From: a virus
Strand: one strand, 5' to 3'
IMG/VR virus record: IMGVR_UViG_3300009609_000040
Span: 1-36,698 of that record
Length of the DNA stretch: 36,698 nucleotides
Shown here: positions 9,606 to 16,701 of the stretch, piece by piece
Position numbering within the stretch: the first letter of the stretch is position 1
How the letters are laid out: every line of letters begins with the position of its first letter
Position numbers and translations under genes: made by a program
Notes under the pieces: generated by a model
The model's input: only the letters and a program-made list of their open reading frames with translations
The model's database searches: none
Told to the model about the DNA's origin: nothing

Positions 9606-10295
9606 TTACGCCCACCCTCTGCGTACCCGGTCTTTGTCCAGGAACGCCCTAGCGCCGAGCGGAATCTCGGTCAAGGATGCTGTTATCGTTGTCTCGCGAT
9701 TCTCGTACAGGTGCCCGAGCATCAGCAGGATTCCGATTTTGAGGGTCGGCGTTATGACAAAGCCGGCCGGACTGTCGTTCGGAGGCGTGTAGCCGGTGAC
9801 GTAGCGGACGCGGACATCGTTGTATGTGCCGCGCGATGTCGGCCACGCCTCGACGCCGTAGGCAAGCTGCACGCGCGCCGGCCAGGTGTCGGAGTTCAGG
9901 ACGTAATCGGCCGAGGACATCGTTTGCTCGACGTCGTCCGCGTCGACATAGACGATTGATTCGACACTCTGAACCGGCCCGAACGGGAGTTCGAAGTAGG
10001 TCGACGGGAACGAAGTTCCGACCAGTTCCAGCGTTTGCGTTGACAGCGACTTCCCGACGTAGCCCTCGGCCCAATTCCGCGCCGCCGGGATGCCGATATT
10101 TTCCAGCCAGTAGTCGTCGCCCGATACCGTGACCGGAGGACTGTCCTCGTTCGGGAACGTGTCGATGCGCAAGTGGTGCCAGGCGTCTTCAATCGTGATC
10201 GGTTCGTCCGCGAATGCCGGCGCCGTGATGACGCGCACGCTATAGGTCGCAAGCAGCGCGGTCCATTCGGCGCAAGTCAGGTCGCAAAGTGTCAT
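9606..10295 (-). CDS. Head-tail connector protein (HK97 gp6-like)
   Basis: 229 residues from the ATG at 10295, which overlaps the methyltransferase stop as ATGA; a longer in-frame extension upstream only overlaps that gene and is rejected. ITIEDAWHHLRIDTFPNEDS, then NWAEGYVGKSLSTQTLELVG, then VRYVTGYTPPNDSPAGFVIT and the final LGARAFLDKDRVRRGWA are typical of the gp6-like connector family (pfam05135 and relatives) that forms a ring under the portal. It is normally directly after capsid or portal; here the collagen-like and glycan-enzyme block separates it from them. Confidence 0.88.
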   Translation of the reverse strand: MTLCDLTCAEWTALLATYSVRVITAPAFADEPITIEDAWHHLRIDTFPNEDSPPVTVSGDDYWLENIGIPAARNWAEGYVGKSLSTQTLELVGTSFPSTYFELPFGPVQSVESIVYVDADDVEQTMSSADYVLNSDTWPARVQLAYGVEAWPTSRGTYNDVRVRYVTGYTPPNDSPAGFVITPTLKIGILLMLGHLYENRETTITASLTEIPLGARAFLDKDRVRRGWA

Positions 10296-10825
10296 TCGTT
10301 CACCCAAAAGACTTGATGCAGGGTTGACTTCTGAATCGGTACGCCAGCCTCGACAATCGCGCGCTTGACGCCGGGACAATGCGCCCACTGATAGTCGTCA
10401 AACACAGCAATCCCGCCGGGCACCATATGCTGCCGCAACCACTTGATCGCGTCCGCGGTGCTGGCATGGAAGTCGAAATCGACATGCGCGAAGGCGACCC
10501 GGATATCCAGCCCGCGCGCCGAGTCGGGGAACAGCCCGCGGCAAAGTTGCACATTCGGCGGCATTTCCGCCCGCATCGCCTCGAAATCGCAGTCGCGGAA
10601 GTCGCCCGGATTGTGCGGTTCGTCCTTGTTCCACTTCTCGACCGGCAGCCCGTCCCAGGTGTCGAACCCGTAGCACATCCGGTCGGGATACGTTTCCGCC
10701 ATGATCTTCAGCGTTCCGCCGTGATAGACGCCGAACTCCACAATCGCGCCCTCATGGTGGACTGCGCGTTGCAACAGTACAAGCAAATGCTCGAGCTTCG
10801 GCCCGCCGATCAACGTCTTCAACAC
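10292..10825 (-). CDS. TylF-type class I methyltransferase
   Basis: 177 residues from a GTG at 10825, which overlaps the stop of the pyruvyltransferase gene; GCGGAG lies 6 bases upstream. The SAM-binding core is visible as EGAIVEFGVYHGGTLKIMAE, followed by YGFDTWDGLPVEKW, then the acidic metal-binding segment VAFAHVDFDFHASTADAIKW and MVPGGIAVFDDY. This matches the macrocin O-methyltransferase (TylF/MycF, pfam05711) family, whose members methylate sugar hydroxyls. It is the last of four sugar-modification-type genes, so O-methylation of a phage-made or host glycan is a reasonable inference. The actual substrate is unknown. Confidence 0.85.
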   Translation of the reverse strand: MLKTLIGGPKLEHLLVLLQRAVHHEGAIVEFGVYHGGTLKIMAETYPDRMCYGFDTWDGLPVEKWNKDEPHNPGDFRDCDFEAMRAEMPPNVQLCRGLFPDSARGLDIRVAFAHVDFDFHASTADAIKWLRQHMVPGGIAVFDDYQWAHCPGVKRAIVEAGVPIQKSTLHQVFWVNE

Positions 10826-14290: not shown

Positions 14291-14866
14291 TCACTCGGCC
14301 CATGGGGTATACCCGGTCGGAGGCGAGTAACTGAACTCGGCCGTCGTCGTGCGCAGGGTGAAGTTATAGGTGCCGCCGCCCCACGATTGGTGCGCAGCGA
14401 TACGGAAGGCGCCTGCAAATGTGCTCAGAATTACGCTGCCATTGGCGACGTTGTTCTTGTAGAAGTAGACCGTCTTACCCGCGACATCGACCGCAACGCC
14501 GACGACATCGCCCGATGCCCAACCGGCCGCGCCGTTGTTATTCGACGTACCGCCGCTGACGTTGCCGCTGCCACGCTGGAGCATATTCGGCGGCGTTTGC
14601 GTGCCGCTGTTAGGGTCTTGCGCTGCGCCAGCGATGCCGATGAATCCGAATAGCGTGGACTGCGTGCCGATCAGCGCCTCGAAGTACAAAAGGCCGGATG
14701 ACTTGCTATCGACGGACAAGGCCCATTGACCGTCGAAAGCGACGTTCGCGGTCAGGTCCCCATTCGAGAGCGTGACGTTTGATCCCTTGTTTGCCGGGTC
14801 CCATGTATCCGGCGTCGCTGGCGCTGCCGATGCGCCGGCCGCAAGCAAAATCTGCGCAACCGTCAC
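14291..14866 (-). CDS. SPRY / concanavalin-fold domain protein
   Basis: 191 residues from a GTG at 14866 that shares two bases with the preceding stop. After a short alanine-rich start the protein has [20 protein letters not shown], then [20 protein letters not shown], then [20 protein letters not shown] and the final [12 protein letters not shown]. This order of strands with a D-V-V-G-V-x-x-D motif is the SPRY (B30.2 core) pattern found in many phage fibre or decoration proteins. It probably binds a protein or glycan on the virion surface. It is flanked by two collagen-like genes in the same frame of coupled translation. Confidence 0.75.
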
Positions 14867-16701
14867 GTTAGCCCGGCGCCGTTGATGACCCATTTCGTCG
14901 AGGCCACCTTCAGCGCGGTCGCTATACCGTTCGCGGCAAGCGTGCGACTCCCGGTCGTTCCGGCGCCGGCCAGGGTCAACGTGTCCGAAGTAATCGCGAT
15001 CGTGACCGTGTTCACTTCGTTGACGAAAGTAATCGCCGTTCCGACGGGGTACGCGACGTTCGCGTTACTGTCGATCGTGAAGGTGCGCGGATTGTCGTCG
15101 CTCGAGGGGTGATAGATATGTTTCCCCGCGTCCGACAGGACCGTCGTGTATGCGGCGCTCTTGCTGTTTTGCGGAATGCTGCCGTCGGACTTGGCGTTTA
15201 TCTGCGTCTGAATCGCCGACGTGACCCCGGTCAGGTAGCCGAGTTCCGTCGCCGTCACTGCCGACGCAGCGATATTGCCGGCCACGTTCGAGACAAGAGC
15301 GCGCGATGCCGTCAGGGACGGCAGCGTTACAAGGCCCTCATTCAATACGATGTCGTCCAGGTAGAACCCGACGTTCGCGCCGCTGCCGATGATCGTGATT
15401 CGCAGCGTCGTGACGAGGTTTCCCTGAGGCACGCTGAACGCGGAAATCGGAACTACGATCTGTTGATAGCTGCCCGTTAGCGCCGAGTTGAACCCATACA
15501 GACCGTTGCTTACCGTTACCTGAGCGCCGCGGAGACTTGTGCCGCTGTACCAGCCAAGCCGGAAAGCCTTGTTCGTCGGGAATGCTGCCTTAACCCGCAC
15601 ATAGAAGACGACCGTATTCATGATCGCCAAGTCGACGGTTCCAGCCGCCGGCTTGACGAAGTTGACATAGGCATTTGCCGCAACGTTCGTGCCTTCTACG
15701 TCATAGGTCCCGGTCCGCGGATTGCTGGTCGAGTTGACGACGATCGTGCCGGCCGAAGGCGTCGCGGTCCATTCGGCATTCTCGGCGTAGATGCTGGTCT
15801 GATTGATCTCCGGTTCGGTCGTCGCGGCCGAAACGTAGACGATGCCCAGGCGAAGATGAATGGCGGGATCGATCGTCGGTTCCGCCGGGTTCGCCGACGG
15901 GGTGCCGTCGATCGAGGAAAGCAGTCCGTCGGCATCCAGTACGAGAACGTCGATCCGGTCGAGCGTGGCATCGGCGGCGGTCAGGGTGACGGTATCTGTC
16001 GACGACGAGACAGCGACGCCGCTTATGTAATAGGTCGCCGCGCCGACTTCGTACTGATAGCCGGTCAGCCATGCGACCGTGGCGCCGCTGACGAGATACG
16101 TCCCGACGCCCGACGTACTGTCGTCGAGCCCGGCAACGGTGGCGGCAAGCTCCTCGATCGCCGCTTGCACATCATCCGAGGCAATTGAGCCGGCCGGCGT
16201 GAACGTGATGTCTTCGGCCGCGATGGAACCCGGCGCCGGAGTACCCGGCGCGGCGAACGTGCCGTCTTCCCGGAGAAAGCGCGCGATGTCGCCGTCGACG
16301 CCGCCGGATGCCGGAACGAAACCCGCCTTCATGCGACTGAACGGGCGCAATGTGCCGCCGCCGCCCGCCGCCGCCGTCCCGGTCTTGCCCTCCGGGCCCT
16401 GAAGGTCGACCCACTGGCCCCATTCGTTAAGGGTCAGTTGGAAGCGCAGCCGCGTTCCGTCCCATTCATGCGCCGGGACCGGACCCGTAGCGCCGTCCTG
16501 ACCGGGTTCGCCTCGCGGTCCCGGTTCGCCCTTCGGTCCAGGTGGCCCCTGCCGTCCGGGTTCGCCGGCTTTCCCGTCGAGTCCCTTCAGTCCCTCCGGG
16601 CCAGACGGACCGGCCGGCCCGATCGGACCCGGCAGCCCATTTTTGCCGGCGCGCCCGTCGCGGCCGTCCCGGCCGTCGCGGAAAACGACCTCGTCAGGCA
16701 T
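14863..16701 (-). CDS. Collagen-like fibre protein with C-terminal beta domains
   Basis: 612 residues from the ATG at 16701, inside the last 8 bases of the portal gene. Residues 10-75 are 22 Gly-X-Y triplets ([20 protein letters not shown] and onward). Next are [20 protein letters not shown], a glycine-rich hinge, and [15 protein letters not shown] as found in fibre proteins. The middle has a beta-rich region with [13 protein letters not shown] and a jelly-roll-like segment (residues about 330-470: [20 protein letters not shown], later [12 protein letters not shown]) resembling carbohydrate-binding modules. The C-terminus ([20 protein letters not shown]) resembles tail-fibre tips. Probable receptor- or surface-binding virion fibre. 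Confidence 0.82.

Follow-up and report, generated by a model that had tools for sequence, protein, structure and literature searches.

The occurrence of four putative sugar-modifying enzymes beside collagen-like fibre genes in the middle of a phage virion operon raises the question of which molecule these enzymes act upon. The operon lies in the IMG/VR virus record IMGVR_UViG_3300009609_000040 (positions 1 to 36,698; this whole stretch of 36,698 nucleotides is hereafter referred to as the window), which derives from a siphophage whose head genes are of the HK97 type and whose tail contains phiJL001 Gp84/BR0599-type proteins. An initial annotation of the window had proposed that the enzymes glycosylate, and then pyruvylate and methylate, the collagen-like fibres or another virion protein. 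The analysis presented here demonstrates that two of the enzymes, a Maf-like and a GT9-like protein, constitute a conserved pair in phage head modules, and it favours, with moderate confidence, the view that the four enzyme genes represent a late, cytoplasmic O-glycosylation cassette for a virion protein of the phage itself. That it specifically targets the collagen-like fibres is improbable.

The seven genes of the block form a single run on the minus strand (16701-10292), with the portal gene on one side and the connector gene on the other:

16694..18094, minus strand: portal protein (HK97-type), upstream boundary (PF04860 Phage_portal 279.6 bits, 4.4e-83; phrog_2271 6e-123)
14863..16701, minus strand: collagen-like protein 1, 612 amino acids (PF01391 34.6 bits, cut-off 27.2, 1.7e-8; phrog_6320 tail fiber 7.6e-20)
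14291..14866, minus strand: SPRY protein (lectin-like beta-sandwich), 191 amino acids (PF00622 27.6 bits, cut-off 26.3; phrog_10080 4.7e-23)
13261..14256, minus strand: collagen-like protein 2, 331 amino acids (PF01391 79.2 bits, cut-off 27.2, 1.9e-22; C-terminal part phrog_1289 1.2e-27 and phrog_2271)
12653..13264, minus strand: predicted Maf/GT42-fold glycosyltransferase (MptE-like/DUF115 family), 203 amino acids (phrog_4603 2e-39; family PF01973; AlphaFold2 fold)
11760..12665, minus strand: predicted GT9-fold (GT-B) glycosyltransferase, 301 amino acids (phrog_6804 1.9e-37; AlphaFold2 fold)
10819..11769, minus strand: polysaccharide pyruvyltransferase-like protein, 316 amino acids (PF04230 PS_pyruv_trans 27.0 bits, cut-off 25.3)
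10292..10822, minus strand: TylF-like S-adenosylmethionine-dependent O-methyltransferase, 176 amino acids (PF05711 57 bits, cut-off 23, 2.3e-15; PF13578 4.2e-10)
9606..10295, minus strand: head-tail connector, downstream boundary (PF05135 Phage_connect_1 23.4 bits, cut-off 21.2; phrog_442 4.7e-18)

The coordinates and names that the initial annotation had given to this run of genes between portal and connector are borne out by Pfam, PHROG and the folds; its statement that few phages carry extra genes at this place is incorrect, the portal-connector interval being a hot spot in the relatives. Successive genes overlap by 4-13 bp throughout the run, the sole exception being a 34-bp gap between the SPRY and collagen-like 2 genes, and several of them start with TTG or GTG at or beside the stop codon of the preceding gene. 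The same block is present in four further IMG/VR contigs of this phage, one of which ends inside the collagen-like 2 gene, and is therefore not an assembly artefact or a chimera. No described RNA element was found in the window.

Occurrence and folds of the sugar enzymes

Divergence within the alignment of the Maf-like family (alignment A1) precluded its use in a scan of viral contigs, and the survey was therefore performed with portal and GT9 queries. The scan of IMG/VR with the GT9 profile yielded 331 loci. The 80 best were retained, leaving 45 after redundancy removal and a length filter; the samples of this survey are the best matches, picked by similarity, and its counts and statistics ignore kinship. 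Among the 45 non-redundant GT9 loci, 38 have a Maf gene at most 2.5 kb away, 18 a recognised methyltransferase gene and three, including that of the window's phage, a pyruvyltransferase-like gene, while a terminase, portal or capsid gene lies within 9 kb in 30. A tblastn search of phage records matched 70 with the Maf-like protein and 28 with the GT9-like protein, including D3, PAJU2 and PMG1. Four of the first five matches in bacterial genomes adjoin phage head genes, and in one bacterial family (268 genomes) the five strong GT9 matches are all in prophages next to head genes. The Maf-like and GT9-like genes are a conserved pair in head modules, often followed by a methyltransferase gene, with D3/PAJU2-type phages, many uncultured siphophages and their prophages as carriers; the set is a phage head-module cassette.

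The closest described carriers are the detreviruses D3 and PAJU2, whose homologues (phrog_4603, Maf-like; phrog_6804, GT9-like) share 31-37% identity with the proteins of the window. In PAJU2, gp10, gp11 and gp12 are Maf-like, GT9-like and methyltransferase genes in succession between head closure and tail genes, and in D3 the same trio (orf7, orf12 and orf13) is present in the virion module but split by head-tail genes. Both phages differ from the window in having no collagen repeats and no pyruvyltransferase or TylF-type gene. Their enzymes are annotated as hypothetical or structural proteins, or as sialyltransferase by PHROG, and no functional description of them was found. The combination, of which the initial annotation knew no described example, thus already exists in part as the Maf-like, GT9-like and methyltransferase trio of these phages; the full set with the pyruvyltransferase-like gene appears undescribed, and a search of the open literature returned no paper connecting DUF115 with phage glycosyltransferases.

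The Maf-like and GT9-like domains occur within one reading frame in 10 contigs (five after redundancy removal and length filter) and in two prophages, L192 and L193, the fused frames being those of L095-L100, L121-L123, L144, L159, L192 and L193. In several of the contigs the fused frame begins inside the small head gene ahead of it and lacks an ordinary start codon, and such frames may use an unusual start or a frameshift. An apparent N-terminal truncation of Maf in these frames proved to result from the way start codons were called, as the frame extends further upstream. A second arrangement was observed in L139-L158 (e.g. L142), where Maf, GT9 and methyltransferase genes lie directly upstream of the terminase gene and not after the capsid gene. 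Neighbours of the pair in viral contigs (alignment A6) include GDP-mannose 4,6-dehydratase, epimerase, GT2, DUF5672 and FkbM methyltransferase genes; given these neighbouring sugar genes, some phages may be able to synthesise nucleotide sugars themselves. In Tetraselmis virus S20, the capsid-region genes are separated from the head-closure genes by a long series of genes for sugar enzymes.

The Maf-like protein alone matches the MptE-like Pfam family at 21.6 bits, under the cut-off of 34.6, while 36 of the 42 members of its family match PF01973 (MptE-like) at E<=0.01. Direct sequence searches of the PDB gave nothing usable for the Maf-like, GT9-like and pyruvyltransferase-like proteins, and a profile search of the PDB with the Maf-like protein matched CstII entries alone, weakly (E 0.18-0.5). 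AlphaFold2 models of the Maf-like and GT9-like proteins were considered, built on alignments of their viral relatives. For the Maf-like model (predicted local distance difference test, pLDDT, 94.9), the best structural match is the flagellin glycosyltransferase Maf of Magnetospirillum (5mu5, Z 15.8, 180 of 203 residues), followed by the GT42 sialyltransferases CstII and CstI (Z 10.4-11.8) and, level with CstII, by HPPK (8sd5, Z 11.8). Foldseek returned mainly short-chain dehydrogenases with weak E-values, and a second structural alignment placed Maf and GT42 on top. On these models, the protein is predicted to have the central GT42-like catalytic fold of the Maf family. It shares this catalytic-domain fold with the Maf flagellin glycosyltransferases, but is a single domain of 203 amino acids spanning only the region 260-510 of 5mu5, whereas the AMB-1 Maf is a multi-domain protein of 632 residues; the phage block also differs from Maf systems in carrying no flagellin or nonulosonic-acid genes.

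No Pfam family matches the GT9-like protein of the window itself, and PF01075 was detected in only one of its 31 relatives (0.0086). Its model (pLDDT 94.7) resembles the GT9 structure 3tov (Z 19.3), TibC (Z 19.1, root-mean-square deviation 2.7 over 253 residues) and heptosyltransferase II (Z 17.7), with a Foldseek E-value of 1.2e-9 for a GT9 match; since the assignment rests on the fold, without a curated PF01075 match, the protein is classed as GT9-fold only. TibC is a Ser-directed protein heptosyltransferase acting on autotransporter proteins; it has a four-Cys iron finger, and Asp-110 serves as the base (PMC4358343). Asp14, a candidate for the catalytic Asp of the N-terminal GxGD loop of GT9 enzymes, is unchanged in all 31 phage GT9-like proteins and appears to lie near the position of the catalytic Asp-110 of TibC. 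The phage proteins share the GT-B fold with this bacterial autotransporter heptosyltransferase (BAHT), but not its N-terminal beta-barrel, and their Cys motif CxCx4HxC (C269, C271, H276 and C278), kept in most members, is spaced differently from the iron finger of TibC (C339/342/358/370), so that it does not qualify as one.

The pyruvyltransferase-like protein aligns along the entire PF04230 profile, with a narrow margin above the cut-off. It had no relative in the phage collection and, at the sensitivity of a single-protein search, none in viral contigs outside the same phage; two diverged pyruvyltransferase-like genes adjoin GT9 genes in L117 and L120. The assignment of the TylF-like protein is clear, and it resembles macrolide/sugar O-methyltransferases in the PDB. 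By profile and fold, the four proteins are sugar-transferring and sugar-decorating enzymes, as first annotated, encoded in a heritable cassette within the virion module.

Collagen-like genes and post-portal stalk proteins

A specific modification of the collagen-like fibres by the cassette would agree with the arrangement of the genes, as the Maf-like gene has a TTG start and adjoins the collagen-like 2 gene, the stop of which it overlaps by 4 bp, and as the order of portal, collagen-like stalk and Maf-like gene recurs in several relatives. The survey does not support such a coupling. Neither a post-portal stalk nor a Gly-X-Y protein is present in 22 of the 30 GT9 cassettes having head genes. 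In a set of 37 non-redundant portal-relative loci with at least 2.5 kb downstream, loci with and without a Maf gene did not differ in Gly-X-Y length (Mann-Whitney p 0.76) or in Gly-X-Y presence (9/13 versus 20/24, Fisher p 0.41). On the survey counts, dedicated collagen glycosylation was rejected as the leading reading.

Comparison of the window with contig L007 leads in the same direction. Differences within the block are confined to 11617-13153, a stretch that covers the Maf-like gene, the GT9-like gene and the beginning of the pyruvyltransferase-like gene, while both collagen-like genes, the SPRY gene and the TylF-like gene are identical; the enzyme genes therefore recombine apart from the fibre genes. 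The substitutions number 38 synonymous and three non-synonymous in GT9 and 22 and 12, respectively, in Maf. As this divergence is mostly synonymous, the enzyme genes are coding and are kept functional by purifying selection.

The composition of the fibres is also of relevance. Collagen-like protein 1 has 22 Gly-X-Y triplets (residues 10-75) followed by a long fibre-like, Ser/Thr-rich part, and collagen-like protein 2 has a helical-looking N-terminus, 44 triplets (56-187) and a CBM5/12-like domain at its C-terminus. The main tract of 44 triplets contains a single Ser and a single Thr, which makes it a poor substrate for O-glycosylation of the Maf type; Ser and Thr together amount to 16-20% in collagen-like protein 1 overall and in the SPRY, capsid and tail tube proteins, which are all richer than this tract. 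As to the Lys/Asn-rich Gly-X-Y repeats, earlier suggested as acceptors, Lys glycosylation of the animal collagen type would require lysyl hydroxylation, and no gene for a lysyl hydroxylase was seen among those of the block. Moreover, the recombinant prophage collagen EPclA needs no glycosylation to form a stable triple helix (PMC3368898).

Collagen-like protein 2 belongs to a post-portal stalk family (phrog_1289, 1.2e-27), members of which lie right behind the portal gene in 32 of 37 non-redundant relatives; in the window, the collagen-like 1 and SPRY genes intervene. Its members consist of a coiled-coil-looking N-terminal part, a stalk and, at the C-terminus, a domain similar to carbohydrate-binding module (CBM) 5/12, the CBM_5_12 domain being found in 14 of 39 relatives. 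The phrog_2271 profile links the C-terminal domain with the portal, which suggests a location at the neck. The stalk itself varies, being collagen in some members and PxPxDG-type repeats in others (gp07 of PAJU2, JLK-2012 and SP-016). The phages JLK-2012, FSL SP-016, SOVA965 and RHph_X2_26 carry the same C-terminal domain at the same spot right after the portal, in proteins annotated as 'portal protein' or 'hypothetical', and have no sugar enzymes alongside; a collagen stalk is present only in some, one being clearly collagen-like (SOVA965, 27 triplets). Collagen is one interchangeable stalk type in a widespread post-portal protein family. A swap of the stalk was also observed among the post-portal genes of L169, L172, L173 and L002, with collagen on the one hand and repeated PxPxDGxSxTxDDVxP units on the other, and a CBM5/12-like end.

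On these results, a cassette that glycosylates, pyruvylates and methylates the collagen-like fibres specifically is quite improbable, and the collagen-like proteins are probably portal-proximal fibres encoded in the same insertion hot spot and not the dedicated partner of the cassette. As an observation contrary to its proposal, the initial annotation had itself named enzymes always found without collagen-like genes and acting on host lipopolysaccharide (LPS); the first half is largely what was observed, the second was not. Its alternative of another virion protein as the target is retained as the best one. The collagen-specific proposal being unsupported, its place is taken by the broader and testable claim of a virion O-glycosylation cassette.

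Proposed glycosylation of a virion protein and its alternatives

According to the favoured proposal, the cassette would be expressed late and a virion protein decorated in the cytoplasm before or during assembly. The Maf-like enzyme, with its GT42-like fold, would put the first sugar on Ser or Thr, the GT9-fold enzyme would attach a further residue, and the pyruvyltransferase-like and TylF-like enzymes would cap the glycan with a pyruvate ketal and O-methyl groups. Since all the carriers have a major capsid protein and a tail tube protein, either of these is a candidate acceptor; a fibre such as collagen-like protein 1 is possible. The block has no recognised gene for nucleotide-sugar synthesis, and the sugar donors would therefore have to be nucleotide sugars of the host.

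A precedent is available in the mycobacteriophage Che8, for which capsid glycans and virion glycosylation by phage enzymes are reported (PMC11256854, citing Freeman et al. 2023). Phage glycosyltransferases of the gp108-110 region are thought to decorate virion proteins, but their genes are located at the right-hand genome end, whereas those of the window lie in the virion operon. The TylF-like gene resembles the gp108 region (34% over ~140 residues), and the Maf-like, GT9-like and pyruvyltransferase-like genes are not labelled as relatives of the Che8 glycosyltransferases. Phage virion glycosylation as such is known; the set of Maf, GT9, methyl- and pyruvyltransferase enzymes is what appears new.

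Several points weigh against the proposal. Glycosylation of the virion is deduced from gene content in all the carriers found, and a fold in common need not mean that the modelled Maf/GT42 site is active. The dependence on host donors is a further consideration, as is the fact that GT9 enzymes act on LPS too. In addition, 13 of the 45 GT9 loci have no recognised head or tail gene nearby, although these may have diverged beyond the reach of the probes.

The enzymes might instead alter host surface glycans (LPS or capsule) during infection or lysogeny, resulting in masked receptors or a changed serotype. Many GT9 and pyruvyltransferase enzymes make cell-surface polysaccharides, WaaF and WaaC are among the GT9 folds and phages do alter the O-antigen; however, the genes of the window sit with overlapping starts in a late virion operon, and the strong bacterial-genome matches examined lie in prophage head modules and none in an LPS locus, with one short contig undecided. 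The nearest relative of the Maf fold is a protein glycosyltransferase, and the known serotype-conversion genes of D3 are located elsewhere in its genome. Modification of host glycans is on this evidence unlikely. The name of the MptE-like Pfam family and the structural match of the Maf-like model to HPPK, equal to that of CstII, would in turn fit a pyrophosphokinase of the pterin/thiamin type or another non-glycosyl enzyme with unrelated cargo genes as neighbours. The match to Maf is clearly better (Z 15.8 over 180 residues), the protein is fused or tightly linked to a GT9-fold enzyme and no pterin pathway context was seen, which leaves such an enzyme very improbable.

If the cassette does glycosylate a virion protein, it may represent a widespread and undescribed class of phage cytoplasmic O-glycosylation, in which a Maf/GT42 and GT9 pair (sometimes one bifunctional protein) with methyl and pyruvyl capping decorates the capsid or neck of HK97-type siphophages that infect Gram-negative bacteria, D3 being a carrier; on this wider proposal our judgement is evenly divided. 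To our knowledge, glycosylated phage virions are barely known outside the mycobacteriophages. The proposal, if true, would bring common siphophages of Gram-negative hosts into the range of virion glycosylation, among them D3 and PAJU2, which are tractable in the laboratory and make the question directly testable. It would also provide a function for two PHROG families now called 'unknown' and 'alpha-2,3-sialyltransferase' and could have consequences for adsorption, for stability and for how antibodies or surface-sensing defences recognise the phage.

Other features of the window

A type IV pilin-like gene (20582-21016, minus strand; N-terminal methylation motif 8.6e-11, Pilin 0.0016) lies between the large terminase and head protease genes, and its relatives occupy the same place in the sister phages L011, L012, L015 and L017. 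Two pairs of similar adjoining proteins are encoded on the minus strand at 33541-34479 and 34483-35433, and at 35438-35917 and 35917-36303; these have no Pfam or PHROG match where scanned and may be receptor-binding or tip proteins that were duplicated. A frame of ~940 amino acids for a tail protein (1-2830, minus strand) leaves the window at its left end and an open frame (36304-36698, minus strand) enters at the right end, which suggests a circularly permuted, near-complete genome.

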